Assembly (NCBI RefSeq): GCF_000003605.2 | Contig: NW_003146281.1 | Span: forward strand, 481,874-515,115 | Reading direction: 5' to 3' | Source of the DNA: Saccoglossus kowalevskii | Lineage: Eukaryota; Hemichordata; Enteropneusta; Harrimaniidae | Length of the DNA: 33,242 nt | Part shown: one piece after another, positions 1,740 to 33,130 of the stretch | Position numbering within the stretch: the first letter of the stretch is position 1 | How the letters are laid out: each line of letters opens with the position of its first letter | The notes under the pieces: model-generated | What the model was told of the DNA's origin: nothing | What the model saw: only the letters and a program-made list of their open reading frames with translations | The model's database searches: none | Position numbers and translations under genes: made by a program

Positions 1740-3003
1740 TACATTGCATGGTGTATGTCGGAAAGTTGTCCATGTTTTGTGGCAAATTGGCCACTTAAAC
1801 TATACTAGTAAATATATACCTTCATTGTTTTAGGTGTTACCCAGAGTGATAGACGTGCTCCACTCTTAGACTACAGAAAACAGCTTCCATGCGAGAGAGT
1901 TTATCCAGAACCCCAGACACCTACAGAATAGCTTTTAGTTGTCTGAGGTGAAACAGACAGCGCTACTTTTCACACGTCGTTATTATCGAAATTCAGGTTT
2001 TTCTTCGCGATAATACGTGTCTCGCCTGCACCAGTAGCGGAAATGCAGCATGCCAGTCTCATCACGGCAGATGTTGTCACGGCGTAAATTGTATGTCAAT
2101 CTATGGCACTAGCGATAACTGGTGTTTCGCGTATTATCCCGCCCACGCCGAACGAAAGATTCGTTTCTGGTCACCCGCGTTTGAATAGAAAGAACACTAT
2201 GATTAATACGACAATTTTGTAATACCACAGAATAAAAACAAGATCATCTGTAATTTTTGTTTTGACAAATTCTAATTTGCTATGTAACTCGATTTATAAA
2301 TGACTTACACGATAACAATGTGTGCAGGTTAACCTAAGAACCGTGTCACAGAGAAGTCAAAATTTACTCATGGTATCGAATAAATAAAAAGAAAATATAA
2401 AAATAACACACGACACATGTTTGCGAAGCTACGGTGGGTCAAGGTTCAATAAATAACATGGTTTTCAGTTTATTATCAATATTGTGATTTATTAGGGCGT
2501 CCGTGGAGTCATGTGTCTTAAACAGCCCGGGAACACAGATAAAAAACAACGCGGATATTGTGGTGAGTGTTTTGGGGGAAGGAGTAATATACACTAAAGA
2601 AAAATACAAATTGTATGCTTTCTATAATTATTCAACCACTTTTTATCCATTACCAGATATCATTATAATCGTATGTCTTGTGGAGTTTATCGTAAAGTCC
2701 GGCATCGGTACAGATATTGCATGTAATCGTGTTATTGAATCAAAATTATTATGGGAAAATTGAGAATTTTGAAAGAAAATTATTATTTCCCATTTATGGG
2801 AGAAGTGTTCTACAATGTAGAACATTGCTTTTGAATAAACCACGTGTTGCTATAGTGACATTGCTTTGTAACATGGCGTAAGATAACTTGCGATATTGAC
2901 TGTATGCGCGAAGAGATTCTTCACTATTCTGTCATATTTAAGTTGCACTTATTTCAATTCCAGCAAAAATTTGAGTTCATAACTTTTCGTATGTGGTGCA
3001 ACC

Positions 3004-3204
3004 CAGACTGGCAAAGTCGGGACTTCTTTTTTGTTTTGCAAAAAAAATATAATTAATTGTCAATTTGGCCTTTTTAGCGTGATCGCAAAAACTAGCGTGG
3101 CCGCGAAGAAAATCGAAAGATTTCGCGGCGAGTGGGGAACATATTTCATTAATTAAAAATTACACCTATGTTTGAGAAAATCGCCCCGACTGTGGCCAGT
3201 CTAG
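3004..3204. mobile_element. hAT-like MITE with intact 8-bp target duplication
   Basis: The direct repeat GTGCAACC (2996-3003 and 3205-3212) brackets a 201-bp element. The ends CAGACTGGCAAAGTCGGG and GACTGTGGCCAGTCTAG are inverted copies (CAGACTGGC / GCCAGTCTA). An 8-bp duplication with CA.. ends is the hAT signature. No ORF. Confidence 0.8.
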
Positions 3205-3212
3205 GTGCAACC

Positions 3213-6200
3213 GTCAGATGGTATACATTAACAAGGCGCTCATTTGAAAGGTCTATTGTGGAATCAAAAAACAAAAGCAAGAACAATACAAAGGCGGTCA
3301 TCTTTGATTGAAAACAATTGCCATCTTACAATACATAGTCAAAAGCATTGAAAAACTGCTAAAATAGTAACTTAGCTCGACTGGATGTCGTGCAGCCGTG
3401 CCTGAGAAGCGACACTTGGGTTTTTGAGTTTACGATTCATCAAATAACACTATTGTTGACATTTTAATATTATCAAGATTGACTATGATCATACTGTACA
3501 TAAAGACGCACCTCAAAACGACACACGTAGAACACAAATAAATAACGTCTGCTAATGATGATAGTCTGAACTATTTCAATGCCGTATTTTACCGCTTAAA
3601 TCAGGGTGCAAGATATGCACATTTTAATGTACTTTCTATCATGATACTGGTTTGTTAATTTTAGGTAAAATATACATCATTTTCCCTTGGCTACAAAACA
3701 CATTGAAAATATCTTATTTTGTGAAAGAGATAGATGTGATTACAGCCGAAAATTCAAAACAAAATCAAGCATGTAACATGTAAACAAACATGTAAACAAT
3801 TTCCCGCTTCGAGTCATCGATAACTGGGATATTATATATTCCTATCGGTTATCGGTTACCTATTTCTTCTTGAAATATTGTTTGTAACTGAAGTATATCT
3901 GTTTTTATTAATTTAGTCTGTAGAGATACTGCTCTCAGTATCACATGACAGTCGTGTAAGAGTCTCATTATTTTTGCATTTTTTTTTTTTTTACAAACGA
4001 CGACTTCAGCATTAAACAACGTTCCGTCTGAAAATAATATCATTTTATTTTACTTAAGTATAATATGCTGGTTTTTACTCATAATTTTAGCAACTACTAT
4101 ACAATGCTGAACTTTCGCTTGGGATTAATTTTCGCTCATTTCGCTGAAGGAATGAATAAGTGAAAATAAAATCCAGCCGATATACCTTTTTTTCTATATT
4201 TTACATTCAACTGGTCAACAATTAGTGAAAATAAATTCTATACAAAACACCTAAAAAATTCTTTCAGCGAAAATTAATTCCAGCTAAAATAAAGTATTTT
4301 ACAATGCTCAATGTTCTAGTTTGTGATACGTGCTTGAGGTTCACGCTCTGGGGGGGGGTGTCTCATAAACAAAGGTCTCAGTGAAATGGTGTCTGTTTCA
4401 AATCATGTCACGATGAGACCATGTGATAGACCACAGACCCTCTTTGTATGAATAGACGCGTGAACCCAACAGGTAGACATTAACACGACGCGCAGATCAG
4501 TCGAATACAAGAACAATAGATACTCGACCATCTTGGATTTATAACAATCGCCCGAGACAAGGCACTGCGACGCGGAATAGTCAAACGCGCCGCTAAATCC
4601 ATGGCATTGCTGTCAATCACGCCTTTGGCATCATAAAGCTGCAACAACTCGTCGGCTGTGACTTTTATGTGGTTTGAACTGCAGTGTTTGCAACTAGCTT
4701 TTTGTTCAATAAAGATGGCGTATCCAAGCAACCGATGCAACGTCATAAGATACTAGTACATGCTCCATATGGTCCCATAAAGAAGACACCGAATGCGTCT
4801 GTTTAGTGTCTCATTGTTTTGTGGCTTCGTACAGCCCAACACCTACCCTATTTACAAACTCGTTTATGTACTAGTAAGTCAAAGCTGACATGTTGCAGTT
4901 CTCAGCATACCTATAGAGACACTGGCCCGTTACAGTAGTGTACATTATGTATTAACAAAAGGACAACAATAAAGAAACCTTGATGTATTACACACGGCCG
5001 GGTCTAAGCATGAATTCGAGTTACGACCCCTGTCGAAGACTAATCTGGAGAAATTCTCGAAAATATCGCAATTACGCCAATAGGTGAAATTTGAATTTAA
5101 AAAAAACAAACAGATTCCTGAACAGACTTGAACTTAAAAATAAAATATAATGTGCACACGGTCTTTGTCATTAGTGCTGATCGAAGTACAAATGTACATG
5201 TATTACTTTTCCGAGCACGCCATTTTCTTCATCGCCAATGATCGTTTCTTCAATTTATTTAGATATTTTACCAAATAGTGATAGTTGGCTTAAAGTTATA
5301 TTATAAATAATGTGACAAGTTACCCGGAAGAAGCAAGCATTTGACATTTGAAACCACTCCACTATACATCGTGACGGCCAGCGTCGTGACCCCCGTTTAT
5401 TACCACGATAGTGAACGCGTCATCCATACCACGGTGTTATAATACTTAAATGATGTTTGGGCACGAAAAACACACTCAGTAATGATATAACCAACAAATA
5501 GAAATAAATCCACAACCAGTACAATGATAGGTCTGACCATGAAGGCGATAAAATAACCATTATACTAGTATTAGTTACACCAATACTAGTAACTATGCGT
5601 ACCGTGTATTCGTATATTGTATTAATTTTTATTTGCATACCGGTTGCGTATTGATTATGTATAGATAAGGTATTGCATTATATTATGTCAACTGAAATAT
5701 ACTATACACAATCCTAACACGTGTGTGTCTCCTTAAAAGTGTCATAAATCGTGCCTTGGACTAATTGTCCAGAGTTTGTGAAATGGTTTTGTGGGGTTTG
5801 TTATTAGAACCAAGAAGTATATATATATTGATAATTCCGTCATAAATTGAACCATTAACTGCCACATTGTCCCCAGATCGTTTGTCATCGTCATGGATAT
5901 CGTATTTGGAATTGATATGATGACGTGTTTTGTGGTGTAATCGATGACACAACACACTAAAATTGATCGAAATCGAGTTTTAGGAATAAAATAGTTTACA
6001 TGAGTCGATACGTCGTATATGTATATATGTCACCCCAACCCGAGTATTCTTTCGTTATTTTGACAATTATTTATTAGTAGTTTTGTGTTTATATGTGATT
6101 GTGTTTTAAATACAGACACGACATAAATCCGTGGGTGGTAATTCGAGACGTCTTCTTCCGTTCCTGTGGTCTAGTCTTTATTTAAAGTGGCCCACCGTGG

Positions 6201-7602
6201 ACAACGATACGATACGTGTGTTATTCGTCGTGCCATTGTACTCGCTAAATACACACTGTAGGCATCTGTGTTCGATAGCCGACCAGACACCCCTGTCTAG
6301 ATTTTCTCCACACAGACGTCGCGATTTTTCAGACAGTGTCTTAACGCAGTCTGAAAATGTTGGGTCACGACATTGAAAGCTCTGCTTGTCCGCACTTGCA
6401 TTCATTTTTTTTTTAGGAGTAACCTAGTTTTTAACTGAAACAAGAATTTTATTTTCGCAAATAAAAACGCATCCACTGCAATTTTTTAGAAAACATATTG
6501 TATGATAGTGTCAAATTGTGATTCTCCGTCAATGGACATCTGACATCGTCGGAGCTTTGACAATCACACCACTTTTTCCAAAAATAAGTGCTAACTATGA
6601 TCGTTTAACACCCCATTTGCCCCATACTTGCGATTTCCGTGGCACGTGGACAAAGTGAAGATATACACATACTGTTAGTGACGACTCGCGCCCATGGTTA
6701 ACCGCGAACATTACACTCATCTAGCACCTTTTGTGGTTATTTAAAAAAAATATACGAACGGTAGTGAGTGTGTAAGTTGGGGTGCCGTTGTTGGCTGGTA
6801 ATGGTAATGGCTGCACTAAATATACAATATATATCTGCGATTTAGTAAATAAAGTTTAATAACTAGTTGTTAGTTGTGTTAATTTCTTTTTGTTTATCAA
6901 AAGTTTTTTTTTTATCCATAAGTCTTTGAGTGAAATGTATTTTTTATTTGGTGCAGCTCCTAGTTCACATAGTGAGCCCCTGTTACAAAAGGGAAGCAAT
7001 AAATAAATAAATAAATAGTTGTAGATAATACGTGTAACTAGTATTAGTATCACCATAATTATTTATTTCTTCAACAAGTTATATTATTAAAGTATGTTCA
7101 TACTTCATTTTCAAACCATTTAACGTATTTGAGATACGTACAATGTAATTTGTGGTGGTATAGGACCGAGAGGGGCACTGACTTGTAGCTCGTTTACCTA
7201 CCAGCCACGCGGCCAGCATGCCGATACATTCAAACCAATATTGTCTCGGTTCAAAGCCCTGGCACACAGTTTTCAAAGTAGGCCGGTTAGTTTCCTTAAC
7301 TTTATTTAACAAACGGGTATTAGCTTTGAATCAGTTAACTTAGGAATTATTGACCTACAGTGTACGTGGTTCATTCGAGTTCATAACCGTACGTAGCTAT
7401 AGCTTCGTGGAAACGTTGCGTTGTTCAGTTAGCGGGAACTCATTAGGTTTCAGCCATTCAGAATCAGTGCGAAAGGTTACATACGCCTTATATGGGCATA
7501 CCTCCAACGCAACGCATGGTCTACCGAGAACTGAGTTGACGCAGGTCGTAGTATGTTTCAACGAAACGTTCATTCATAAATACGAAGGGAATAACACGTT
7601 CT
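3213..7602. other. Gene-free region upstream of ETS1/2
   Basis: It holds the MITE at 4097-4304, a run of 9 G at 4351-4359, and an AAAT microsatellite near 7000. Short ORFs (for example minus strand 4480-4746 and 6178-6405) resemble no protein I know. Distal enhancers of ETS1/2 may lie here, but none can be pointed to. Confidence 0.5.
4097..4304 (-). mobile_element. Diverged MITE of the same family, inverted
   Basis: The interior is the reverse complement of the 31461-31668 copy (CTGAAGGAAT..., TCTATATTTTACATTCAAC). The ends are diverged: TA|CTATACAATG at left and AAAGTATTTTACAATG at right. Length is about 208 bp, as for the nested copy. Confidence 0.7.
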
Positions 7603-7603
7603 G

Positions 7604-7818
7604 ATTGGCAGACGTCACAGAAAGGCATGCCCTTTATTTACATATAAAAGGCGCTTTGAAAAACAAATGACGTCAACAAACAATACCTCCATAGAGAGAA
7701 TTGGCCCCGCCTCCCAGATTATCCAATCAGAGGATAGCAACCATATGAATGGCAAAGTAGATCGGGACTCTCCCGTCTGATATAAAGCCTAACCCACGCT
7801 CTAGTCAGGTAGTCAGTT
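7604..7818 (+). promoter_or_regulatory. Distal ETS1/2 promoter (CRE, GC box, CCAAT, TATA, Inr)
   Basis: A dense core promoter lies just upstream of the predicted 5' UTR. Visible elements are an inverted CCAAT (GATTGG near 7603-7608), a CRE half (GACGTCA, 7611-7617), a perfect palindromic CRE TGACGTCA (7668-7675), a GC box (CCCCGCCTCCC, 7705-7715), a forward CCAAT (7723-7727), a TATA box (7781-7786) and an initiator-like TCAGTT (7813-7818). A second TATA-like sequence, TATAAAAG, lies at 7643-7650 and might serve another start site. The spacing from TATA to the TCAGT adenine is 34 bp. The paired CREs suggest cAMP/CREB or ATF-type control, which is inference. Confidence 0.7.
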
Positions 7819-8101
7819 CTCTCGAGCATTCAGATGAACACACTTCGATAATACCCAAGATCCTTTTTTTACGTTTTGATATTTTTATACGAACTTGTTT
7901 ATAATTATCGCGATCTCTTGTGGACATCTACATATACAATATTGGCGTTAATTATTTATCGAGTCGAGTCTATCGTACTGTGATATCTACCGTGTATACC
8001 GTGACTGAGTCTTCACCGATATCATTCGACTACACCGTTGAGCGAATAATTCTGTCGTGAAGCCAGGGTATTACATCAACCAAAATACGAATTTACTGAA
8101 G
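7813..8101 (+). other. ETS1/2 non-coding exon 1 (5' UTR of long isoform)
   Basis: The exon runs from the initiator to a good donor (AAG|GTGGGT, GT at 8102). Extending the exon-2 frame upstream meets a stop at 8039-8041 with no ATG between, so the exon is untranslated in the main frame. Its only ATG is at 7834, giving a five-codon upstream ORF that stops at 7849-7851. The rest of the 289-nt leader has no ATG. The 5' end is inferred from the TATA/Inr spacing. Confidence 0.6.
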
Positions 8102-8266
8102 GTGGGTAGTGTTGTCGTTTCTCATGTTCTTTGACAAATTGTCATGACATTCGCCGCTCGTTTGTTCATATTCGATCTTCATTGATAAACAACATGGCGC
8201 ATTTAACCCGTATATTTTATGTGTCGACCAACATAGCTGAGTAACATGTCTATTTTTATTCCCTAG

Positions 8267-8368
8267 GCTCCAATAGAAGTGCCTTTTGCAACTATGAAGA
8301 TCGATAGCGAAACATACGAAGAGAGGTTTGCCATGGAGGCTACAAAACCCATGAAAATCAACAATAAG
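8267..8368 (+). CDS. ETS1/2 exon 2 (start codon exon)
   Basis: The acceptor is TTCCCTAG| and the donor AAG|GTACG. The exon ends in phase 0. Translation starts at 8294 and gives 25 residues beginning [10 protein letters not shown]. The 27 nt before the ATG are 5' UTR. The exon is specific to the distal-promoter isoform. Confidence 0.8.
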
Positions 8369-11300
8369 GTACGTTTTGATCTTATACAACGTTTATGGAC
8401 GGCCATTCATTCTTACTGAGCCGACGTCAGTGCGTGTGTCGCTATTGAATCCATTTGTTGGCTTACCCACGTTTTGCCTGTCAAATATTACCAGTTTTAG
8501 CAACCTGCTGCTGTCTAGCAGCGCTACATCACTCAACCCAAAGCCGCCTTGATGTCAACGGGTCGGCTCTTGTGGAGTTGGCGGTCATTATCAAGACCTA
8601 TTAGAGCTATCGTCGAGATTACGTTTCTATTGTTTCTAGGACAATACTGGCCCTATTCTTGTTTACACTGGTTATGAAAAGTGTTTTCAGAGCTTGAGTA
8701 AACATCTCATAATCCATTAAATTTACGCTGTCAAAACATTGGACACTGCGACGTGACAGCATTTCACCACGCGCTGACACTTACCGTGTGACGTCGATGT
8801 TTATTGCGCAATAGGTCACTGAATATATAAGTACAAATTCCGTGTCGTATTGAGCCCCGCATCTGTTGCTCAGTTACCCAAGGTCACCGATATTTAAAAT
8901 GCGTATATTTACGTGCTATTCGGCATGATTATGTGTATGACACATATCTGAGGGCGGTCAAGGCTAGGTGAAATCGTTTTCTATTGCGTTTCATGGAACT
9001 CCCGGGCATCACGTATCACTCCCTCGGAATCACGACTTCTAAAATCATTTCACTCATGTTCTATCCGTATCCTACCCAGTGTTGGCAGCCTTCTCTCTAG
9101 GAACTTCCTGAAAGTTTGTGATTGGGCCTAAAATTTGCATATTTATATTTTCCAGGCATATAACGGAGAACTTGCAGCAGAAGTTGCTAGATTGAATAGT
9201 ATGCTGAACGATTCTGACGTTTATATGCATTACAGAGAACCAAGTTATCAAGTTGTACCAACAGGATTGGACTTGCCGGACGACATCAATGGTGAGATTT
9301 CTTTTTGTTTTATTTTTCATTTTGTTGAAGTATTTGCCAAGTGTTAGCCATCCATGGAGATTTTTAACCATAAGCTTATTTTTTCTTAGTACAAAAACTT
9401 CTGGTACAAGTTAAGTTCAGGTTTTTCCATTTCCAGTATATTGTATATTTTCCCATACTAGTATATTGTCACGCAAGGCAACGATTTTCAGATTCAAACG
9501 GGAAAAGCTATTTTTTTCAGACATGTTTCCAGACATAGTTTTGGTTTCATGTCTGTTGTCGAAACAATAGGTCTACAATTGTCATGTGCTATGTGGTGCC
9601 CCATGGAGTAAATCTACCTGATAGCTATTTATAAATTACCGGATTAAAACCGCGGGAAGTGTGTTTCTTATCTGTGACTCTCAGCATTATATTTTTATGG
9701 TAGTTCTTCCTTCCTTTTAGCTTGTGTGCTTCACAGATACAGACGCTTTTGGTGTTTAGGTTACAGTTTTGTTTTGGCTTCTCCATTGACATGTGTCATA
9801 ACACTAGTAAAACTTTTTCTGCCCCAGCACGGACAGAGTTCATTCATTGGCGATATTCTGGGTCATGTTTTGACCCAACCCATTTATTCTGTATAGTAGT
9901 ATTACCATATATGGTTACAGGGCAAACATCCATTGATGATGTCACTTTTCATTCAATGCTAATGAGTTTCTTGCTACTTAATATTCATGAGGCAGCCTCA
10001 TTTTCGGTAATTTTAACAGCTCTGCTAGCTAGGTAATAAATTACTCCTCAAAGTGGATATAAAACATGTTTTTTTTGTAACTATGAGCCTTTTAGGCAAC
10101 TATAGGGCTTGAGTATTTCTTTTAGCTCATTAGCTATACACTAATTGACTAAATAAATCCATAGAATGGTCTCAGAGGGGGTCTAAGCTACAGACTAATC
10201 CATTATTAAATGTATTATTATTATTTTACATTGAATTACCCAAAGTCAAAAATAAGTTCATCGACCTCTTTGAAGTTATTCACATTTTAATGATGGAGGA
10301 TTTGAATTGGTTAAAAAATAGTTAATAACAATAACAATCAGATAATAACAATTTTACCAGGATGGTGTACTATGATTCAGGTCATCATTGCCCCCATTGA
10401 TAGCTGCCATAAATTCGTCATATTGTTAACCTTTCTCAATTTCAACTGATGGTGGCGCTATTACACACAAATATGTGAGTCATGTACAAGCCTAATTATC
10501 ATTATCATTGATCCGCCCACACCAGTCACTCAACTCGTCAGGTTCATTGAACTCTTATCATGTAAACAAGAAGCATATTTCATTGATATTGTTGGAGGCC
10601 AGCCAGGGAATGTCTTATCAGATTGTCAATCATTCTACCTCTTTGTTAGTTTTGCTTTAACCTGTGTTTTGAGCTGTTTTAGTCTTTTGTTGTTAAATTC
10701 CATTCTTTTCATGGATGCTTTGGGTAACAATTACCAAATGAAATGGAATGTTGATGATGACTCGCATCGAACAATATGCTGTTTGAGCAGAATCAATGTC
10801 CACCTATAGTCAGGATTAGCTATTTTTGATTAAAATTAAATTTTGAGGGGAGCACTACCGGATGGATTAAAAACAAATTGAATATCTGAGATTACTTTTT
10901 TCTTGTTTTCTCACCACAACTAGTAGGGGTCAACACCTGAATGTTTTTGTGACAGGAAACTTGAGTAGTCCACTCTATTGATTTGTGGTTTTGTTAATTG
11001 TGTGAATTGTCAACAGAAAAAAACAGGGGAAGTTTCCACTGCCCATATAGGCAAAACAATATGCAAATTATTATGAGAACTTGTCTGTGATTGGTTATGA
11101 AATCAGAGTATGCAAATGACTCATATCCCATAGTATAAATTACTGTTGAAGTGAGTAGGTAGGTAGTCAGTCAGACAGTAACCCAACTGAACGAGACACA
11201 CTTGGCAAATACTTGTGAATCATGACAACTGTTGTAGAACCAGAGATTTGGACAACCCATCATGTCTTTTATCAGAAACCAAATGCATCAACTTATTTCA

Positions 11301-13605
11301 ACAAATGTCATTCCTGGATTCAGAAAAACTCTAATGGTAATGCTTGTTCCAATTGTTTGTTTTTTTATTTCTGTTCTCAATTATAATTCTAAATTCTGTT
11401 TTTTTTTCTTTTACAGAGATGCACCCATCTCAGGTTCCTCCTACCCCACGTACTAAAGCACTGATGAATGCCTGTATCACCGAAACTTTTAAGAGCTTTA
11501 ACAAAGAAAGAGAGATTCTTAATATCCCTAAAGGTAAGGCTCAAGCTATGTTGTTGTTAGTATTTTTATTATCTTTTTATTTTTTTTCAATAGATTTTGT
11601 TCATTCTTGTTTTCCACTTCCTAATTATTTAATAATTATTTAATTATTTCAGATCCACGTGTTTGGGATGAAACTCATGTTGTACAGTGGTTGCTATGGG
11701 CGATGTCTGAGTTTTCCCTGGAAGGTGTAATGGTTGCACATTTTACAATGAAAGGATGCGAACTCTGTGCTATGTCTGAAGTAGAATTCTTATCAAGGGC
11801 TCCACCGTTTGCTGGCGACATCTTGTGGGCACATTTGGAGTCTCTGCAAAAAGACTGTGATCGGGAATTGTCATCACTTGCTAGCTCCCTATCCACCACT
11901 TCTACAACTAACAGCGTACCACTAGACCAGGTTCCTGCCAGTTTCTATGAAGCTACCTGTATGCCAGACTTTGAAACGTTCCTCTCAAAAGGTAAGAAAC
12001 TGTAATAGTTGTCGAATAGCGGAAACCAAATCACGTAGACTTTCATGGTTGGAATCTTTTATTGACATTGTTCCATGCTTGGATGAAGTTACAACCCATT
12101 TAATTTGTGAATAATCTACTCAGCTGGTTGTCATGGAGATTCAAAACAATGGCGGTTTTTATGTGGGTATCCTGAACTTATTTACTGGTCATCCAGTCAT
12201 CCAAAAGTGCTATAAAAGTCATACTTACAATGAAGCTTCTGGGTGGCCACTTGACTTGACAACATGGTGTATAAACAATGTTGGTTCAAACTTGTGTTGC
12301 TTAATTAGATAACCCTGTCAACTGAACAACATGAAAATGAACGGGGAAAATAAGACATCAATCTGTACATTGATTCAGTGTATGGAACAATAGCCAACCT
12401 GGGTGGCCCATCCATATGTGGAGTAATGAAATGTAGGACCACCAAACATGATGATGTCATTCATTGAAACTCTAGGGATAGTACGTGTAACAGACCACAC
12501 ACAATTCGATTGTAGTCATATTTCAATTTTTCAATTTTTATTTTGCTTGCAGATTACCCAGACCAACCACAAGCAGTTGCTGTTTCCTCCGCACCTCCAG
12601 CTTACACAGAAAGCATCTACACACAGTCGCTAGCTACGCTGAATGACATCAATGCTGAAGAACTACTGAACATCAAACAAGAAGATGTGAGCTCTGACTA
12701 TTACAGCCAGGATTCATCACCATGTTCTAGTTACGCAGACAGTCAAGCACTTGATTTCTACACAAATATGCTTTCAGATCAACCACAGCCAAACATAACA
12801 TTCCAAGGAAAAAGTTTGAATACAAGTAAGTATAAACGATCAGTTAATATTAATATTTATTGAACAATATTAATCAGAAAAAGCAAAGATTATTTAAACT
12901 AACCATATTCAACTTTATTGCTCGCAGGTAGTTTTGGTCGTTTGGATGTTGCAGTTGACGCATATGGCAGTCGTTTCCAACAAGTACCACTATCCAAGCC
13001 TCTATCACGTTCAGACAGTTCCGATGTTGGCAGTAATTACAGCAATTCTAGAAGCAACTCACCAGCTACGAATACTACTAGTGTGGAGCATCCATCAAAC
13101 CCTGTTATCCAAGCAGCCGTTCTTGCTGGCTATTCAGGTATGTCAAGTTCACATTATTTTCGTCCAATTACAATATATGATTTTTATTATTTTATATTTT
13201 TTGTAAATTTATGAAATTTCAATAGAAAAGTGTCTTATCAGTTCATTGTATTTTGTCTTCACAGGAAGCGGCCCAATTCAATTGTGGCAATTTTTGCTCG
13301 AAAAGTTAACAGACAAAGCATGTCAACATTTGATCAGCTGGACCGGTGATGGCTGGGAATTCAAACTTTCAGACCCCGATGAAATCGCACGTCGCTGGGG
13401 GCAGCGTAAAAACAAGCCTAAGATGAACTACGAAAAACTGAGCCGTGGTCTTCGCTACTATTACGACAAGAACATCATCCACAAAACATCAGGAAAACGC
13501 TACGTCTATCGCTTTGTATGTGATCTTCAGAGTCTACTGGGTTACACTCCAGAAGAGATACACCAGATGGTCGGAGTCAGACCTTTGGACAAGGATGATG
13601 AGTGA
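8294..13605 (+). CDS. ETS1: ETS1/2-family transcription factor, long isoform (join of seven coding exons)
   Basis: The spliced CDS joins 8294-8368, 9156-9291, 11417-11533, 11653-11991, 12553-12825, 12928-13137 and 13265-13605: 1491 nt, 496 aa, close to vertebrate ETS1 (about 440) and ETS2 (about 470). Seen in order: an acidic N-terminal part; VPTGLD at about 63-68, as in vertebrate ETS2; a Thr80-Pro81 site matching the ERK site before the PNT domain; the PNT/SAM domain at about 95-177; an acidic/Ser/Tyr activation region with a SUMO-type IKQE at 263-266; a Ser-rich linker; and the ETS domain at about 386-470. The recognition helix keeps Arg444 and Arg447, the pair that contacts GGA in this family. 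The protein is expected to bind GGAA/T DNA in the nucleus as a target of Ras-MAPK signalling. The start ATG has A at -3, and the same frame meets TGA at 8039 in exon 1. Whether the animal has one ETS1/2 gene or several cannot be told here. Confidence 0.95.
8369..9155 (+). promoter_or_regulatory. ETS1/2 intron 2 with a perfect C/EBP palindrome
   Basis: This is a 787-bp intron without coding signal. It holds a perfect C/EBP-type palindrome ATTGCGCAAT at 8803-8812 and a CRE-like TGACGTCG about 15 bp upstream. Both are single motif matches, and activity is not shown. Confidence 0.35.
9156..9291 (+). CDS. ETS1/2 exon 3 (ETS2-like N-terminal region)
   Basis: The acceptor is TATTTTCCAG| and the donor AATG|GTGAG. 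The exon enters in phase 0 and leaves in phase 1, coding residues 26-70. It includes VVPTGLDLP, which resembles the PTGLD stretch upstream of the PNT domain in vertebrate ETS2. It is absent from the short isoform. Confidence 0.85.
9292..11060 (+). promoter_or_regulatory. ETS1/2 intron 3, with a cluster of GATA/FOX/homeodomain-type motifs
   Basis: This 1.77-kb stretch upstream of the second promoter has no coding signal. Around 10440-10650 there are several GATA-type cores on the minus strand (TTATCA in various contexts), a FOX-type TGTAAACAA near 10560-10568, a CCGCCCACACC GC/KLF-like box near 10513, and a TCAATCA PBX/HOX-like site. Motif clustering suggests an intronic enhancer, but all are short matches. 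An imperfect fold-back lies at 10697-10749. Confidence 0.3.
11061..11172 (+). promoter_or_regulatory. Intronic (proximal) ETS1/2 promoter with octamer, AP-1, TATA and Inr motifs
   Basis: A second complete-looking core promoter sits in the intron between exons 3 and 4. It has two POU octamers ATGCAAAT (11061-11068 and 11110-11117), an inverted CCAAT (about 11089-11094), a perfect AP-1 site TGACTCA (11117-11123) overlapping the second octamer, a TATA box TATAAAT (11134-11140) and an initiator-like TCAGTC (11167-11172). The TATA-to-Inr spacing (35 bp) is almost the same as in the distal promoter, and both start regions share the 11-mer AGGTAGTCAGT (11161-11171 here). A coding first exon follows directly. 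The AP-1/octamer content differs from the CRE/GC-box content of the distal promoter, suggesting different inputs. Confidence 0.7.
11222..11336 (+). CDS. ETS1/2 alternative first coding exon (short isoform)
   Basis: The ATG at 11222 lies about 53 nt after the predicted start site, with no earlier ATG. It opens a 115-nt coding segment (38 codons plus one base) beginning [10 protein letters not shown] and ending at the donor AATG|GTAATG. Its phase-1 end joins exon 4 (11417) exactly as exon 3 does, both producing an Asn-Glu-Met junction. The isoform would use 11222-11336 plus exons 4-8: 1395 nt, 464 aa. The 38-residue N terminus has several aromatics and His, resembles nothing I recognise, and replaces 70 residues of the long form. 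Alternative 5' exons are known for chicken c-ets-1 (p54/p68) and Drosophila pointed. The phase and promoter match make this more than a chance ORF, but no transcript is seen. Confidence 0.7.
11417..11533 (+). CDS. ETS1/2 exon 4 (MAPK site and start of PNT domain)
   Basis: The acceptor is CTTTTACAG|AG and the donor AAAG|GTAAGG. The exon is phase 1-1 and 117 nt. It codes residues 72-109, including PPTPRTK with Thr80-Pro81, the counterpart of the ERK-phosphorylated Thr before the vertebrate and Drosophila PNT domains. The first PNT helix segment follows ([15 protein letters not shown]). It is used by both isoforms. Confidence 0.92.
11653..11991 (+). CDS. ETS1/2 exon 5 (PNT domain core)
   Basis: The acceptor is TTATTTCAG| and the donor AAAAG|GTAAGA. 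The exon is phase 1-1 and 339 nt. It codes [17 protein letters not shown] and continues through [14 protein letters not shown] (about residues 110-177), the diagnostic PNT/SAM fold that docks ERK and co-activators. A Ser/Thr-rich tail runs to residue 222. Confidence 0.95.
11992..12552 (+). other. ETS1/2 intron between exons 5 and 6
   Basis: The intron is 561 bp, GT-AG, with a good polypyrimidine-rich acceptor. I see no repeat or regulatory structure in it. Confidence 0.8.
12553..12825 (+). CDS. ETS1/2 exon 6 (activation region, SUMO motif)
   Basis: The acceptor is TTGCTTGCAG| and the donor ACAA|GTAAGT. The exon is phase 1-1 and 273 nt. The region is low in basic residues and rich in Ser, Tyr, Asp and Gln ([13 protein letters not shown]), typical of an activation domain. 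It contains a psi-K-x-E sumoylation consensus (IKQE, Lys264). Homology is weaker here than in PNT and ETS, as expected for the family. Confidence 0.88.
12928..13137 (+). CDS. ETS1/2 exon 7 (Ser-rich linker and inhibitory segment)
   Basis: The acceptor is GCTCGCAG| and the donor TCAG|GTATGT. The exon is phase 1-1 and 210 nt. It begins with a Ser-rich stretch ([20 protein letters not shown]) like the CaMKII-regulated serine-rich region of ETS1. It ends in [13 protein letters not shown], matching the helix HI-2 region just before the ETS domain. I could not recognise a helix HI-1 counterpart. The position corresponds to the exon that is skipped in human p42 ETS1. Confidence 0.88.
13265..13605 (+). 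CDS. ETS1/2 exon 8 (ETS DNA-binding domain, stop codon)
   Basis: The acceptor is TTGTCTTCACAG|. The stop is TGA at 13603-13605. The whole ETS winged helix-turn-helix is in this one exon: [35 protein letters not shown] and recognition helix [14 protein letters not shown]. It is followed by [16 protein letters not shown], the conserved C-terminal inhibitory helices H4-H5 that separate ETS1/2 from other ETS subfamilies. All core residues seen in ETS1 are present. Confidence 0.98.
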
Positions 13606-14300
13606 ATCTTGGTTGCCATAGATACAGGTTCACCTGTAAAAACTCTTTCACAACCGGGAAATGTGCAACAATATCCCATGATGCAACAGTGCATCTGTGT
13701 TGTATTTTCTGTCTAATCAAGTTCAGTTTCTGGGTCATGTAACCCATTTTTAGAAGATTGACGTTGTAAGGCTGAAAAAATTGTGCTAATCGAGTCTGGT
13801 TACACCTGGTCTTGGTAGGTTATTACAAGTGTTAGGTTACGCGTTCAGACAGTAAATGCAGAAGGCAAGCAATAATAATGAGAGGTGTTTGGCACACTGC
13901 CAATAAAATTTGAATTTTACTGACAATCATGATCTCACCATAATGTTTCTGAAGGTGCTATTGTAAAGCAGTTGATGAAAAAAATAAGTAAGGAGAATTT
14001 ACATCCTTATTCATGTATCAGAATGTGAGTTTACTTAAAAAAGAGAATTTTTTTGTATTGTTTTGTAAATATTATTTCAGTTTTTACAACCTAAAAAGGA
14101 TTGTATTATTTGTCTGATGCTGGCATCAACGTTTTTGATTTTTTTCTGACAATCCTGATATGTTTGGTTGTTATTTGTTTACTCAAGGTCTTGATGACAA
14201 GTTAGTGTATATGTACGGATAGATTTTTTTGAAGAAAAGTTTTTCTGCATTGTTACAGTTTTTATTTTTGTATCAAATAAAATATGTACAGTGACTCTAT
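13606..14300 (+). other. ETS1/2 3' UTR with poly(A) signals
   Basis: No ORF continues after the stop. AATAAA signals are at 13902-13907 and 14276-14281. The second is followed by a T/G-rich stretch suitable for cleavage and is the likely main end. Further AATAAA at 14748-14753 and 14948-14953 could extend the transcript. A perfect Pumilio recognition element TGTAAATA lies at 14064-14071. Confidence 0.6.
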
Positions 14301-15319
14301 ATTTAAGTAAATAATAGTTTTTCTTGTTTTTCATTCATGTATTAATATATCAAATACCTCACAATGAAACAGACAGGAATTCGGCACTGGTGGCTGTGTT
14401 TGGCTGGTCCAATATACACAAAATTTGTACATTGAGATAGCATGGTTATGTAAATCTTGTCTGAGTTATCGTGGGCATCATTTACCTAGAACAATACATA
14501 GGAAGTCTTGGCTCCGTCCTTTATGATGATTGAATTGCTCATATGTGAAGGGATACGAATCATAATTTGGAAGTTGATATAAAGGGCAAGATATAAAGTG
14601 ACCCATGTTCGTGTAGCTCGGTTTACAGCACACAAATCTGTACAGGGTTTTAATCCTTGTATAACAGGTTTTTTATTGTGATCCAATATTTTGTACATAC
14701 ATGAAGTCTGTTATTTACAAATCTTCATACATGTTACTATGGAAACAAATAAAACTGTTGAATTTTAAACATAAAATGTTTTTGTAAATTTGATGTATAA
14801 GTGTATGATTATGAACATTTCTTCATTAATGAATGATTGGTCCACCCCTGACAGTGCAGTACTATTTCCAAGAATTGTCCTTCCCATCAGAGTGCCTTTT
14901 TCGCACATACTTCTACTCTCTACGCTGTGACTGGTCCAATTGTGTATAATAAAACTGTAAATGCATTAATTTATTCAATGAGTTTAAACTTTACTATTCA
15001 ATGAATGAAATTCATTAAATCTGTGTGAACATATAACATTTGAATAAAAAATGTTTCACTGGGAAATCCTTAATTCAAACCAAGTGAATATAATCAAACC
15101 TTTTACAGTATTCTCAAGTGTTGGACCATTAGATACTTTGGGGCCGTTCGCAAATTTGGAAAAAAAAAACAGGATAAAATCTCAAGGACGAAATCCTGCA
15201 GGGTCCAATTGCAGAAAAAAACTGAGTTAAAATCTTAGGGAAAAATATTTCACACAGTGGAAAAAAATACAGCAAATTCATCATGGCAAACTAAAACACA
15301 AACAGAAAACACTATTTTT
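14301..15319. other. Region downstream of ETS1/2
   Basis: It contains two further AATAAA signals (14748-14753, 14948-14953) that could serve a longer ETS1/2 transcript and the MITE at 14955-15108. Otherwise nothing is recognised. Confidence 0.5.
14955..15108. mobile_element. MITE with CTGTAAA ends, second copy
   Basis: CTGTAAATGCATTAATTTAT at the left and ACCAAGTGAATATAATCAAA followed by TTTTACAG|TA at the right resemble the 1573-1739 element in sequence and spacing. The left flanking TA is lost. It lies just beyond the ETS1/2 3' end. Confidence 0.55.
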
Positions 15320-16016
15320 AGCTCTGCTGTCGACTTTGTCGAGCGGAGCTTATCATATGAGTGATTGTCCGTCGTCTGTCGTCGTTGTCCGTCGTCGTCC
15401 AGGTCAATGTTTTACTTTTTCGACTTCTTCTTGAAAACTACAAGCCTGAATGCTTTGATACTTGGTGTATATGTACTTTGGGTGGTCCTCTCTTAGGTTT
15501 GTTCATTTCATGATGATATCTTCAATTCTCTAATTTTGGTGAATATTTTTGTCATTTTTGGTAAAAAGTGATATTTTCGACTTCTTGTTAAAAACTGCAA
15601 GTCCAATTGCTTTGATATTACATATATAGATGCTACATTTGGACCTTTCTCAGATTTGTTCATTTCGTGATGATATCTTTCATTCTCTAATTTTCATGAA
15701 TATTTTTGGTAAAAAGTGATATTTTCGACTTCTTGTTAAAAACCAAAATTCCAATTGCTTTGATATTACATATATAGGTACTACATGTGGACCTTTCTCA
15801 GATTTGTTCATTTCGTGATGATATCCTCAATTCTCTAATTTTGGTGAATTTTTTTGTCATTTTTGGTAAAAGGTGATATTTTGAATTCTTGTTGAAAACA
15901 GCAAGTCCGATTGCTATACATACTATACATATTGTTCATTTTCTAATGATATCTTCAGTTCTTAATTGAAATGTGTCTTGCTAACAGCGGAGCTATCTCA
16001 GCCGAGATGCTGCTTG
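15320..16016 (+). repeat. Dispersed 0.7-kb repeat, copy 1 (intact arrangement)
   Basis: The 5' end is a hairpin (AGCTCTGCT / AGCGGAGCT around GTCGACTTTGTCGA). It is followed by GTCGTC-rich sequence, then about four tandem sub-repeats of 150-157 bp (starting near 15411, 15567, 15717 and 15871). The end is ACAGCGGAGCT plus a second hairpin (ATCTCAGCCGAGAT) and GCTGCTTG. The outer 11-mers are inverted with one mismatch. A second copy at 31085-31952 in the same orientation shows that it is a mobile or formerly mobile sequence. No ORF. The class is not recognised. Confidence 0.8.
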
Positions 16017-16122
16017 TTTTGGTAATGGTACACCTATAATAAGCAAATGCCACAATTGTTGAAGGCAGTGCATTGTATATGTATATATTAACATAGCATA
16101 GAACATGGATTACAATGTGTTG

Positions 16123-17040
16123 CCCTTTAATATAGTAGACGTGCTATTTAATATAGTAGACAAGCCCTTTAATATAGTAGACATGCCCTTTACTATAGTA
16201 GATGTGCCCTTTAATATAGTAGATGTGCCCTTTAATACAGTAGATGTGTCCTTAACTATAGTAGACAAGCCCTTTAATATAGTAGACGTGCTATTTAATA
16301 TAGTAGACAAGCCCTTTAATATAGTAGACATGCCCTTTAATATAGTAGACGTGCCCTTTACTATAGTAGATGTGCCCTTTAATATAGTAGACGTGCCCTT
16401 TAATATAGTAGATGTGTCCTTAACTATAGTAGACAAGCCCTTTACTATTGTAGAAGTGCCTTTTAATATAGTAGAAGTGCCCTTTACTATAGTAGATGTG
16501 CCCTTTAATATAGTAGATGTCCCCTTTAATATAGTAGACGTGCCCTTTAATACAGTAGATGTGCCCTTTAATATAGTAGACGTGCCCTTTAATATAGTAG
16601 ATGTGCCCTTTAATATAGTAGACGTGCCCTTTAATACAGTAGATGTGTCCTTAACTATAGTAGACAAGCCCTTTACTATAGGAGAAGTGCCCTTTAATAT
16701 AGTGGACGTGCCCTTTAATACAGTAGATGTGTCCTTAACTATAGTAGACAAGCCCTTTACTATAGTAGAAATGCCCTTTAATATAGTAGACGTGCCCTTT
16801 AATATAGTAGATGTGCCCTTTAATATAGTAGACGTGCCCTTTAATATAGTAGATGTGCCTTTTAATGTAGTAGACGTGTCCTTTAATATAGTAGACGTGC
16901 CCTTTAATATAGTAGACGTGCCCTTTAATATAGTAGACGTGCCCTTTAATATAGTAGACGTGCCCTTTAATATAGTAGATGTGTCCTTAACTATAGTAGA
17001 CAAGCCCTTTACTATAGTAGATGTGCCCTTTAATATACTA
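16123..17040 (+). repeat. 21-bp minisatellite, 43 full units plus a partial one
   Basis: The unit is CCCTTTAATATAGTAGACGTG with variants (TCCTTAACTATAGTAGACAAG, ...ATACAGTAGATGTG). From 16123 to 17025 there are exactly 903 bp = 43 x 21 with no indel, followed by a partial unit. Because 21 is a multiple of 3 and the unit lacks stops in the relevant frames, both strands show a long ORF (16105-17115 + and 16110-17108 -) reading as PFNIVDV and STILKGT heptads. No start context, splice signal or homologous protein supports translation, so I treat these as repeat artefacts. Confidence 0.92.
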
Positions 17041-17703
17041 GTAGTATTCAACAAAGATTCTTTTACACACACAAAACTCCTTAATTCCGTGACCGTGTAC
17101 CAAGCCATAATGTAATACTAAATATTTTATTGTCTGGATAATTCGCCAAGAAATCAATACATATTATTATTTATACAATATATACGTAATTATTCTCATT
17201 GAATAAATCAACATGGCTGCGTTTTTTTGTCGATCATATTATTTTTGATCAATGTAATATCACTCTTCCAGAATGTCTCTGCACAAAATGAGAAAACTCA
17301 TGTTGATATCATATCAGGCTATAAGACAACACGCACACATCTAGACATTACCAGAACACTAAATAGCGTTCTATGTAGTGTATATGGTCGGCATAAAGTT
17401 TACCGAGTATCGCATGATTTTAAATTATACGAATAAGTTGAACATGTACGTGACCCGGTCTAGCAATTTTTTCTTTTAGGTCAGCTTTGCTAGATTCACA
17501 AAAAGCAAGATTGGAATACTTTTAAAATGTTTAAACATAGTATAAATACATTTTGGTTGATTATACTTGACATTGAACAGATTGACTACCTTTAACACTG
17601 AACATTCCATTGCGATGATGCTATACTATGTTACAGTGTGATGAAATACATTTTAAACTCGCCTCAGCCTCAGCAACTATGACACTAGACAAATTAGTAC
17701 TAG

Positions 17704-17826
17704 TACTTAAATCGCGGTGGACGTCGCGCAGCGCGTGTTCGAATTTCATGTAAACAAACAATGTATTTTACACGCGTTGTATACGTCTATGAGTCCCATA
17801 TCGAACAGGACGCGACACGTCCTTTA
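17704..17826. mobile_element. ACTTAAA-ended MITE, copy 1
   Basis: ACTTAAATCGCGGTGGACGTCGCGCAGC... to CGCGACACGTCCTTTAA. It aligns almost base for base with the element at 19171-19307 through its interior (GTGTTCGAATTTCATGTAAA, CACGCGTTGTATACGTC). The right end is truncated and diverged. Confidence 0.7.
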
Positions 17827-19170
17827 ATTTTGTTTTCAACTTCCCATATTTCAAAGTAATTAATGGGATGGGTGTACAGCAGTTAATTTTGTTCTTTATC
17901 AGGTCGGGTCACAAAGCTGACCTTACCGATGGTTTTTATGCAAGCCACAGTCATGGGTCGTACATACACTGGACAAAGGGTAAATCTTCTAAAAAGGGAA
18001 GTTTACATCGTTGTGGGTTCATCCACAGTGGCCGTGGTTCATCCCATACAAATAATATCCTAAAAATCAAATTACATGTAGGTTTCACTGCAGAATATGT
18101 GCACACTGTAAAAATGACATAGCGTCTCTATGTCTAGAAGAAATCGACATCTACAGCGTAACATGTAGGTCACTGTACCATGACGCATTGCTTCAGGTAT
18201 TCGCCCGCATGGATTAAAGTTTCACAAACTTGTTTATGGTGATGTCATCTTTTAGGACGCCCACGCTTTAACAGGTTGGTTGCCTTTAGTTACCACCTGC
18301 TTTTTGAAGAGGGTTTAAGCTCGAGGTTTGTAACGAAAAACAAAACTTTAATCAAAAGGGGCTCAGTCCGCTCTAAATCTCCAGTTACAGTAGAATAGAT
18401 ACACGTAGGTAGGTTTCATACAAGTATGAGGCTTCGTACCCACGGCTGTGATATTTTCACATCCCCAAATTCCGTAATTTATTAGGTTGTAGTGAAATAT
18501 ATACCTTGTTGATAACCCCGGGGTTGATAATCAGATTATGTGTCTCTAATAGGGGACAAGGGGGATAGCTGGTACAGGTTACAGGAAAGAAAAAAACGGC
18601 ATTTTACGTTTAGGAAATAAAATGAAAGTTCCATTTACAGTAAAAAATATTTTTTTTAAGATAACGCAAATTCCTAATTACATTGTACATTTTTATAATA
18701 TTTTTGATAATTTGTGTTTAAAAAATCAAAATTGGAAATTGCGTACGAACTACGACATTAAATTTGGAAAATGCTTTATACGCTTACAAAAAATAATATC
18801 TTTGTACAAATTACGGACGAATAAAATAGCTGATTACATTTTACACCTTGCCCATGCCGACGAATTTACGTTTTTTATTTATTTAAATTTTATTATAACG
18901 AAAATAAAAACAATCGATTACAGCTTACAAAAATGCCCCTTGCCGACCTTCTAAATACTGAACAATTTTTATTTTTTATATCACAGTATTTGCATCATGA
19001 TGTTACATTGTTGATTCAGTTCAGTGTGAAGTTATATAAAAACACTCAGGAGCAAACGGGTAACTAATTGCTATTTACTTTATTTGATCTGTATATGGAT
19101 GTCCATTAAAACATCATACGAGCTTTTACGACATGTTTTCACTTATAAAGTCTCACCACACGCCTTCCAT

Positions 19171-19307
19171 ACTTAAAGCGCGGTGGTCGTCGCGCAGCGC
19201 GTGTTCGAATTTCATGTAAATAAACAATGTATTTTACACGCGTTGTATACGTCGCTATGAGTCCCATATCAAACAGGACGCGGCGCGACGACCACCACCC
19301 TTTAAAG
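19171..19307. mobile_element. ACTTAAAG-ended MITE, copy 2
   Basis: This 137-bp element has good inverted ends: ACTTAAAGCGCGGTGGTCG against the reverse complement CTTTAAAGGGTGGTGGTCG, both continuing into TCGCGC. It is GC-rich in an AT-rich setting and nearly identical inside to 17704-17826. Confidence 0.78.
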
Positions 19308-19373
19308 AGGCCGTGATTTCACTTATGTTTTAGTGAGTAGGTTTTGTATGTATCTGTCTTATTATTGGGTATA

Positions 19374-19602
19374 CTGTAAAACATGTTGAAAAAGCGGCAT
19401 GCAATTTTAGCGAATTGTGGTAAAATGACGTAATAGCGAAATGTTGATTTAGCGAATCTCTCTTGTCATTGTTGATTTCTTTGTTTGATGTCCATTTTGA
19501 ATTTATAATAAAGTCATTAGCGACATCTTGAATTAGCGAATCAGTTATCTCGTTAAATTCGCGAAAAAGACATGCTCGCGCAAAAAGACATGTTTTACAA
19601 TA
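19374..19602. mobile_element. MITE-like element with CTGTAAAACATG ends
   Basis: TA|CTGTAAAACATG at the left and CATGTTTTACA at the right are inverted. The interior carries repeated TTAGCGAA / TTCGCGAA words. It is of the same general type as the other CTGTAAA elements but a separate sub-family. Confidence 0.55.
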
Positions 19603-22056
19603 GACTGTTTTGCAGCCATATGGCACCTGGTAAACTAATGTTTTCCTGTTTGAAGATGAATACACTTGTTTGGTTTTCTTTTTATTATTATCTGAGGTTT
19701 TGGTTTTCTAAAGCGTTTTATTGTGGTTGCAGGACTAACGTCTTGATGGCGCGACAGCGTAGTCCATTTCGCCCCGTCTCCACCCAATCTAGATTACCGC
19801 ATGGGACTCACATATGTGTGGTTTGTTTTCACAACCAAAAACAAATTGTTTAGAAGTTGGCCATTAGAAACTCAATGACAGGGATTGGAGGTTGGACAAT
19901 GATGACCATTCCGACTCTTCGTCTTGTAAATGACTCGAGTGTATGACAGACACGTTGAATTCGGTGTGAAGTATTGGATCAGTAACCGCGTAAAACGGAT
20001 TATTTTGATAAACTCGGGAAGTAACTTGTAGAAGGATATAGCATGACCTCTTAGCCTGTTCAAATTGTTTATAATATAACATGTAACACAAAACGAGCAT
20101 AACACAACATCTAGGTAATTATTCTATTTATTCTCATGTTAAGTGATTAAATCGATTTCGCAATTGGTGGTTCCAATTGAAAGGGTCGTGGCTAAATCAA
20201 GGTGGTTTACGTAAATGGGAAAATCCAGAATCACTGACTTTGATATCGTAAACTGGGTCCTCAACCTCCGACTCGAAGGGGTGACTCATTGTTTGTGGTC
20301 ACGTGACAGGCGAGCCCTGAAATAAATTGGTTTTGCAATATGCCGCCCCAGTAGTTTTATCGATCACATGGGGGATATTCACAAGTGATAAACTGGTTAC
20401 GTGTTTCACAAAGCGGTTAATTAAATGAATATCTATTATCGATTTGATTTTATCAATAAGAGTGTTGAACTTTCTCGTTTTGTATGAATGTGTGACATTT
20501 TCATGATATGTTTCTATAGAAACGCCACACCTGTATTATTTGACCTGAATATGTGAAAAGTAATCCCTCTCTTATTATCTTGAAATAAATGAGATTATGA
20601 GAACATTTTCAGAAGTATGTGGGTCTTCGGCGTGCTCTGCGTAACTACCGCACTTTATTGTAAGACCCGTCGTTATAAGTGTTGGTAATTTTAATTTGGC
20701 TGTCGTCATAATGGTCAATTTACACACCGTCCGTTGAGGGACGGTGATTTACACTACCGTTGTCCCAACGGGAGGAATGTTTCTCACGAAGATATCCCTG
20801 AAAGAGATACAGGGAGGATATTTGGTCACTTAAAAGACAATACTGATAGAGCGGGTCACGTTCATGTTCATTCCAGTTGGAAATTTACCCCTAAATTCAG
20901 CTTCATTCCTGTATTTTCAAATTGTCAGTTATATTCTATATAACGGTTATATATTATAAACACGTGACCAAGAAAGGCATAATTTAATCTGCAATTTATC
21001 CACGTGAACAAGTCTTTTTTAAATAGAGGAATTGCCGGCACTATTTACTAGTCTGTGTTTGGCAGAATTTACTACATATATACGTGATTAGTGAATTTAC
21101 AAATCGGTAAAACTAGTTGAATACTTATTTTATTTAACAAAATGTACAAACCCACCCATGTAATTATCATGTCATGGGTTATTTTACAATATTTATTTAC
21201 GGGTTCGATACGGATTTACTGAATGATATGGGTGTAAACTAGAAGAACCAATATTGTCAAAATCGTTAGTTTTCACTGGATATTAATTTCAATGTTATTT
21301 TGATCACATTCTCTGAGTTTTGAATTCACGGGTTTCCATGGAAACAACGGATTATACTGTAATTATAATCGCGAACAGCGTAACTAAAGTTAAATAAGTA
21401 ATTAATTAATTAATGCATTTAGAATAGTTCGCCTCGGATAAGAATGACATTAATTAGACTTAGTTATATTAAACATTTTTTTTACTATAAAATATGAATT
21501 CATTTCAGATTCACAATGGTGGAATCAAAGACGACTCGAAATACAACATAAAATTATTACTATAATTAATTTAAAATGTTATTTTAAATAATTATTTCAC
21601 ATATAAATACATATTGCCTTAAATATATATATAAATCATAGTATGTCGGTCAGTCACTATATTATCGTACGTGACCCATGTCATTACTTTACAATTATGT
21701 TCACATGTATATTGCGTTCTGTCTCAATAAAATAAATTGTTTATAAAAGGATTTCACCTTCAGCCCCTCATGCATGTCACCATGGTAAATTTAAAATGAA
21801 AACGTGACCAATGGTGTTACACAGTACACAACAAGCCGTTTGAAACAGACACAGTTTCATGAAATTGACATACTTCCCCTGACACGCGTGGTTGCCTTTG
21901 ACAATGAACTACTTTCTTTGACGGACTTTCCGCCTTAATCGCCGACAACTCTGGGCACTTCCCCTTAGGGCATACCGTTTATACTCGGACCGACAATTTT
22001 CTCTTTCACGATGCATCTGGTAATACTAGTGAGCGGTCAGTTTTGACGAGATTAAC

Positions 22057-22119
22057 GACTGTCCACATTGCATTGTACGTCGGTAGCGACTGTCAACATT
22101 CGCATTGTACGTCGGCAGC
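22057..22119. repeat. Two-copy 31/32-bp tandem repeat
   Basis: GACTGTCCACATTGCATTGT... and GACTGTCAACATTCGCATTG..., both ending in ACGTCGG.AGC. Only two units. Confidence 0.65.
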
Positions 22120-23566: not shown

Positions 23567-23735
23567 ACTTAAAGTGGGGGAGTCGTCACCTACGCATGCG
23601 TCAGATGGCCATAGTGTGTCATTGTTTACAAACAAACTTCTACCCATGAGCATTTGCGTTTTTAGCGTGTGTTGTTATCGTCGCTTGGGACTCAATTCCC
23701 GCGCGTGCGCAGGTGACGACACTCCCGCTTTAAGT
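23567..23735. mobile_element. ACTTAAAG-ended MITE, related family
   Basis: ACTTAAAGTGGGGGAGTCGT at the left and ACTCCCGCTTTAAGT at the right are inverted, both continuing into TCGTCACCT.CGCA.GCG. It shares the ACTTAAAG ends, G/C-rich arms and a TTGTTTACA core with the 17704 and 19171 elements, but the arm sequence differs. Confidence 0.7.
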
Positions 23736-26700: not shown

Positions 26701-27164
26701 CCGAGAAATTAAATTAAATTAAATTGACTTAGACTAATTCCAAAATACTGAACAAACCGAGTTTGTCGTGTTTGGTTTTCCGAGACATCGATACCAGTGA
26801 ACTCTTGTATGTGCACTTGACTTGGGTAACGCGAGTGAACTTTGGTCGAGAAGGCCAGAAACAAACCAATACTTTTACAATACGAAACAAGAACTCGGAC
26901 CCCGCTTTCTACTTTACGCGTGATATTGTTTAATAAAATTTGGTTTAATCATTTTTGCGTTCCCACGACTATTAAACTGAAAGCAGATGAACAAACACCA
27001 CTTGGTCTTTTCAGCCAAGGAACTCCATGAGACGGGGTCAGTAGACAGTCTGGTTTTACTGTCTGAATTTTTCGGCCCGGTCGAAAATGATCTCATCGTT
27101 TGCCCTTGGTACTAGTTACTCCCGATATGGTAGTTTCATTGTTTCGTCCAAATGGCCAAACTCC
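23736..27164. other. Intergenic region, part 2
   Basis: No gene is recognised. It contains G/C homopolymers (12 G at 24247-24258, 10 C at 24445-24454, 11 G at 24932-24942), an inverted pair CTCGCCAACC / GGTTGGCGAG 351 bp end to end (24268-24618), an AAATT repeat near 26706-26725 and the palindrome at 26015-26065. Confidence 0.5.
26015..26065. repeat. 36-bp perfect palindrome bracketed by 8-bp direct repeats
   Basis: CATAGACCTTAGAAAACA at 26022-26039 is followed at once by its exact reverse complement. GTTCAAAC occurs immediately on each side (26015-26022 and 26058-26065). This looks like a minimal two-ended insertion of a transposon with hAT-like 8-bp duplication, or a solo pair of terminal repeats. 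Confidence 0.75.
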
Positions 27165-33075: not shown

Positions 33076-33130
33076 GTGAAAACTCAACTTGTATATCAAT
33101 ATAACTACTGGTAATGATGACTGTCAGTAT

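Follow-up and report, generated by a model that had tools for sequence, protein, structure and literature searches.

Two predicted TATA promoters with a shared 11-nucleotide start-region word in a Saccoglossus kowalevskii ETS1/2 gene

Why should two predicted start regions of a single gene carry the same 11-nucleotide word, AGGTAGTCAGT, at almost the same distance from a TATAAA box? The gene in question is a predicted ETS1/2 transcription factor gene on the forward strand of a 33,242-nucleotide (nt) stretch of Saccoglossus kowalevskii DNA (contig NW_003146281.1), the whole of which was analysed and is referred to below as the window. An earlier, sequence-only reading of this DNA had offered two answers: an old duplication of one promoter, or a downstream core element held in common. 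Our analysis indicates that the gene probably has two alternative TATA promoters, the products of which would have different N termini, and that the word common to both is most plausibly an initiator together with a start ladder of period 4 in partly repetitive sequence, rather than as the mark of a duplicated promoter. The explanation as a whole, namely two TATA-plus-initiator promoters in which the start cassette has arisen twice and which receive different upstream inputs, is the one that we favour on balance, and with some reserve.

The gene model was built by GT/AG splicing, and its parts, all on the forward strand, are as follows:

7811–8101, forward: predicted distal non-coding first exon, donor GAAG/GTGGGT (boundaries inferred from the splice consensus)
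8267–8368, forward: distal coding exon, with ATG at 8294 (splice model)
9156–9291, forward: second distal-specific coding exon (splice model, coding signal)
11165–11336, forward: predicted proximal first exon, ATG at 11222, weak donor AATG/GTAATG (splice model)
11417–11533, 11653–11991, 12553–12825, 12928–13137 and the coding part 13265–13605, forward: common exons (splice model, domain search)
13603–13605, forward: stop codon TGA of the common exons (splice model)

A Pfam scan of the long form located SAM_PNT at residues 96–177 (8.4e-26) and Ets at residues 389–468 (2.9e-34), both above the cut-off; this is the domain order of an ETS1/2 transcription factor gene, and both domains are encoded by the common exons. 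Moreover, the top PDB match to residues 1–177 of the long form is C-ets-1 (2kmd), and a TP site ahead of the PNT domain, again in the common exons, resembles the ERK site of ETS1. Two sets of first exons are spliced in one phase onto the common exons, with both frames open through the ETS domain, to give modelled isoforms of 496 (distal) and 464 (proximal) amino acids that differ solely in their 70 versus 38 N-terminal residues; the splice model thus bears out the suggestion of the sequence-only reading that separate starts feed isoforms distinguished only at the N terminus. The distal-specific part has a clear coding signal, as both of its scored 38-codon stretches exceed all 4290 non-coding stop-free stretches. 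On the proximal side, an in-frame TGA (11216–11218) lies just 5' of the ATG, and the proximal exon is therefore most naturally a first exon. The alternative that it is a cassette exon was rejected, since the same TGA precludes a long in-frame internal exon. When the 77-residue proximal N-terminal piece was submitted to the Pfam scan by itself, no family was matched.

The features of the two predicted promoters are listed below, beginning with the distal one:

7643–7651, forward: rival distal TATA box, TATAAAAGG, 138 bp upstream of the TATAAA at 7781
7668–7675, forward: cyclic AMP response element (CRE) palindrome TGACGTCA, the sole copy within the window
7707–7712, forward: GC box-like CCGCCT (motif scan)
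7723–7727, forward: CCAAT box (motif scan)
7781–7786, forward: distal TATAAA box (letters checked)
7807–7817, forward: AGGTAGTCAGT, predicted distal start region; the A of each pyrimidine-A (YA) step at 7807, 7811 and 7815
7813–7818, forward: distal TCAGTT initiator (motif scan)
7838–7845, forward: ACACACTT in the predicted distal 5' untranslated region (UTR) (letters checked)
11061–11068, forward: octamer ATGCAAAT (motif scan)
11110–11117, forward: second octamer ATGCAAAT, overlapping the AP-1 site
11117–11123, forward: AP-1 site TGACTCA, overlapping the second octamer
11134–11139, forward: proximal TATAAA box (letters checked)
11151–11179, forward: simple run of period 4 enclosing the proximal 11-mer, with 19/25 lag-4 matches
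11161–11171, forward: AGGTAGTCAGT, predicted proximal start region; the A of each YA step at 11161, 11165 and 11169
11167–11172, forward: proximal TCAGTC initiator (motif scan)
11196–11203, forward: ACACACTT in the predicted proximal 5' UTR (letters checked)

The letters and coordinates of both copies of AGGTAGTCAGT are exact, and its placement 26 bp (distal) and 27 bp (proximal) past the first T of TATAAA is correct, as are the positions of ACACACTT, which begins 31 and 35 bp, respectively, after the start of the 11-mer. It also holds that the upstream motifs differ, with the CRE, GC box-like and CCAAT motifs found distally, and the two octamers, the AP-1 site and an inverted CCAAT found proximally. 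Besides these two proximal octamers, the forward strand of the window has no other (the reverse strand has five), and AP-1 sites occur at four places within the window. As a separate observation, the predicted distal 5' UTR contains a single upstream ATG, which opens a five-codon frame (7834–7851) that overlaps ACACACTT, and the predicted proximal 5' UTR contains none; this contrast is a possible translational difference between the isoforms.

Measured from the first T of the TATA box, the YA steps fall at 26, 30 and 34 bp in the distal promoter, and at 27, 31 and 35 bp in the proximal one; the TA within the 11-mer provides the middle step, with its A at 30 and 31 bp, respectively, such that each TATA box is followed by a pyrimidine-purine step at about 30–31 bp. 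Both promoters also have a TCAKTY initiator, but with its A 34 and 35 bp from the TATA box. The two strands of the window hold 111 TATAWA sites. Steps of YA at d, d+4 and d+8 (d being 26 or 27) follow just two of them, which are the two promoters here, the pattern having been chosen post hoc. A TATAWA followed by TCAKTY, with the A at 26–37 bp, is seen for five of the 111, at four places (7781, 11134 and 21624/21626 on the forward strand, and 28087 on the reverse), of which two coincide with the predicted first exons. This combination supports both sites as core promoters, independently of the rest of the 11-mer.

In a mouse study by cap analysis of gene expression (CAGE), spacings of 30 and 31 bp between the TATA box and the transcription start are the commonest, and the great majority fall within 27–34 bp; for a TATA box at -32 to -34, a stronger start motif is described, with alternative starts upstream (PMC1779604). 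By this mouse preference, initiation would be expected at A7811 and A11165, while A7815 and A11169 would be secondary or share dominance with them. The latter pair, 34 and 35 bp from the TATA box, are the starts put forward by the sequence-only reading, which would need correcting in this respect.

How unusual, then, is the shared word? All of the chance tests were designed after the observation; in the pair tests and alignments, a minisatellite (16100–17049) was masked and sites too near one another were passed over (limits of 100 to 250 bp, depending on the test; 100 bp on one strand in the pair counts of TATA sites). When the 80 nt after the TATA box were compared, an exact common word of at least 11 bases, in register within 1 bp, was found in 1/20000 pairs generated by a third-order Markov model. 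Among 5957 real TATAWA pairs there were 7 such cases, these being the present pair and six others that share at least 18 bases and look like dispersed repeats. The TCAGT within AGGTAGTCAGT fits the known initiator consensus, and two promoters may share an initiator for reasons of function. Among pairs of TCAGT in the window, 14 of 4371, including the promoter pair, extend to at least 11 matched bases. Thus, the 11-mer match exceeds chance, yet it is modest once a common initiator is allowed for. The sharing of ACACACTT is weak: the window has two copies on the forward strand and two on the reverse, and a word of at least 8 bases, in register within 5 bp, is shared by 252 of 20000 random pairs of 51-nt sequences. 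Simple sequence of period 4 raises the odds of a common word at two places and can grow by slippage, and the best 28-nt window of the proximal run (11151–11179) is in the top 0.08% for lag-4 matching.

On the favoured explanation, TBP bound to TATAAA would position RNA polymerase II over a short stretch of 4-bp periodicity at each promoter. This stretch would present a pyrimidine followed by an A at intervals of 4 bp, the preferred distance of 30–31 bp corresponding to A7811 and A11165, and the consensus initiator TCAGTY at 34–35 bp to A7815 and A11169; the shared 11-mer would, therefore, be the start cassette itself. We infer that the cassette most likely arose twice, through selection for an initiator and slippage-type growth of a tetranucleotide run, and not through copying of a promoter. 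The CRE, CCAAT and GC box of the distal promoter, and the octamers and AP-1 site of the proximal one, if bound by their factors, would supply different inputs, with the distal promoter giving rise to the long isoform with VPTGLD and the proximal promoter to the shorter isoform.

Several observations weigh against this explanation. The distal run (7800–7818) is just mildly periodic, with 7/15 lag-4 matches and 7.7% of windows reaching its best 28-nt window, and slippage therefore accounts less well for the distal than for the proximal site; also on the distal side, TATAAAAGG at 7643 looks better as a TATA box than the TATAAA at 7781 (there is no TCAKTY 26–37 bp past it). The 1/20000 obtained with the Markov pairs would still be compatible with shared ancestry or with a genuine longer element. 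At the proximal exon, the donor is weak and so is the coding signal of the open reading frame (ORF), which 4.1% of the 4290 non-coding stop-free stretches equal or exceed; a rival frame scores slightly above it (0.103 versus 0.089). Finally, the proximal core (-250 to +50) has one CpG and an observed/expected (o/e) ratio of 0.10, i.e. it lies in CpG-depleted gene body, and this hints at germline methylation. The distal core (about -250 to +50), with 13 CpGs and a ratio of 0.96, is CpG-normal DNA.

The last of these points belongs to a wider mosaic. Along the window, the CpG o/e ratio is 0.87 (1–2000), 1.18 (2001–9300), 0.46 (9301–13600), 0.39 (13601–14400), 1.04 (14401–27400) and 0.45 (27401–33242). 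As a side observation, the low-CpG stretches, 9301–14400 and 27401–33242 (0.39–0.46), fall on the ETS1/2 gene and on an apparent second gene. The mosaic would be a methylation footprint, as expected for invertebrate gene-body methylation, in which methylated CpGs are lost through mutation (PMC8857923). This would suggest that germline transcription starts at the distal promoter and crosses a methylated gene body, and that the proximal promoter, if used, is tissue-restricted, or else is no promoter.

The latter alternative survives best among the rivals, although we regard it as doubtful: the proximal site would be no more than a chance TATA box and a simple repeat within a methylated gene body, with the distal isoform as the sole product. 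The CpG depletion, the weak coding signal and the weak donor are all in keeping with this, but it has to accommodate the clustering, within about 280 bp, of the window's only two forward-strand octamers, the overlapping AP-1 site, the inverted CCAAT, the TATA box and the initiator, and in the same interval an ATG with a phase-correct donor.

We judge it unlikely that many TATA promoters of this animal use an extended, lineage-specific initiator, of about the form AGGTAGTCAGT, as a true core element. The exact 11-mer is in register at both TATA promoters and has no further exact copy in 33 kb, as such an element might lead one to anticipate; looser copies are, however, at chance, with 8 sites at up to two mismatches (both exact copies included) versus 6.89 expected from shuffling, and the other guessed gene start, placed by eye at about 27.3 kb, has no exact copy.

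An old duplication of one promoter, in which everything has diverged save the start cassette and ACACACTT, is very improbable. It would account for the collinearity of TATA box, 11-mer and ACACACTT at both sites, and a gapped alignment of the 110 nt downstream of the TATA boxes gave a score (13.0) that was reached by just 44 of 5000 dinucleotide shuffles, which taken alone points towards duplication. This rarity probably stems from the 11-mer itself. Among the controls, we gave most weight to real TATAWA pairs, as their base composition is the local one, and the same score was reached by 397 of 5939 of these, and by 854 of 18565 random pairs. Over -100 to +100, the scores under four scoring schemes were reached by 2357, 1007, 546 and 124 of 5803 real pairs; the 19 ungapped identities over +10 to +60 were reached by 1571 of 5803; and in a repeat search the best repeat at both promoter sites was 16 nt at 88%. 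A short upstream match around CAATCAGAG would favour duplication (raw score 12.5), but its spacing differs by about 23 bp, and that of ACACACTT by 4 bp. The wider alignment is thus no better than that of many real TATA pairs, no alignable homology is detectable beyond the short motif, and the proposal of a copied promoter is unsupported.

We also consider it a long shot that a start ladder every 4 bp after a TATA box is a reusable core cassette of the lineage, present twice in one gene, in unmethylated and in methylated DNA, in which case chromatin state and upstream factors would choose the isoform from equal cores. The other proposal of the sequence-only reading, ACACACTT as a shared core element of the type of the downstream promoter element, with fixed spacing, fails on its unequal distances from the 11-mer and on the frequency with which random pairs share such a word.

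Alternative promoters with different amino termini have a reported precedent in the family: Crepieux et al. are said to have described, in 1993, two amino termini of chicken c-ets-1 arising in this way (cited in PMC10992995). The p68 form of ETS1 derives from an alternate promoter (PMC9249322). As with chicken ETS1 p68/p54, two first-exon sets here join the same downstream exon in frame, in this case in a splice model. The distal exon contains QVVPTGLD, and its likeness to the N termini of human ETS2 and long ETS1 was matched by 6 and 10 of 2000 shuffles, respectively; for this reason, the p68/ETS2-type N terminus may have its homologue in the distal form. The 38 proximal residues, by contrast, matched none of three reference N termini (equalled by 830 to 1811 of 2000 shuffles), and differ from ETS1 p54 in that they are dissimilar to its N terminus (830 of 2000); it is only by position that the proximal form is p54-like. 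Drosophila pointed, with its P1 and P2, is likewise an ETS gene with two promoters (PMC4668582); in the present gene the SAM/PNT domain is in the common exons and is kept by both modelled isoforms, unlike in pointed, where only PntP2 has it. The two cores resemble the focused, TATA-plus-initiator core promoters of metazoans in their TATAAA, TCAGTY and YA at 30–31 bp, and depart from that type in having a YA every 4 bp and the A of TCAGTY at 34/35 bp, at the upper limit of the 27–34 bp range of the mouse study, or slightly beyond it (PMC1779604).

No matching paper came from a literature search for hemichordate or sea urchin isoforms of ETS1, and the matches listed by searches on ETS1 p68/p54, ETS alternative promoters, core promoters, pointed and gene-body methylation included none on invertebrate-deuterostome ETS1/2 promoters, most subscription journals being outside the search; a literature text search for VPTGL found papers on other subjects only, and no ETS paper. 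Overall, the case is modest and of a known kind, and the shared 11-mer by itself leaves knowledge of promoters unchanged. Should transcripts confirm the model, a further animal would be added to those with alternative N-terminal ETS1/2 isoforms, which are known from chicken and have a parallel in fly pointed; the VPTGLD-type distal N terminus would then suggest that the long form is the older, and the promoter pair would allow similar core promoters to be compared naturally in opposite CpG contexts.

A number of further features were noted in the window. The minisatellite (16121–17041) has a 21 bp unit, TGCCCTTTAATATAGTAGACG, in 43.9 copies, and contains one long stop-to-stop open frame per strand, of 337 and 335 amino acids. 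By eye, 15305–16010 and 31085–31950 are two copies of an apparent dispersed element, with edges like CTCCGCTGTCGACTTTGTCGAGCGGAGC and AACAGCGGAGCTATCTCAGCCGAGA. A possible start of a downstream gene, again recognized by eye, is at 28402–28570 (ATGGCCACATCTAAG...), and the Pfam scan of its first 56 residues gave no match. Lastly, 1831–1935 may, as judged by eye, be the final coding exon of an upstream gene, ending in YPEPQTPTE and a stop codon.

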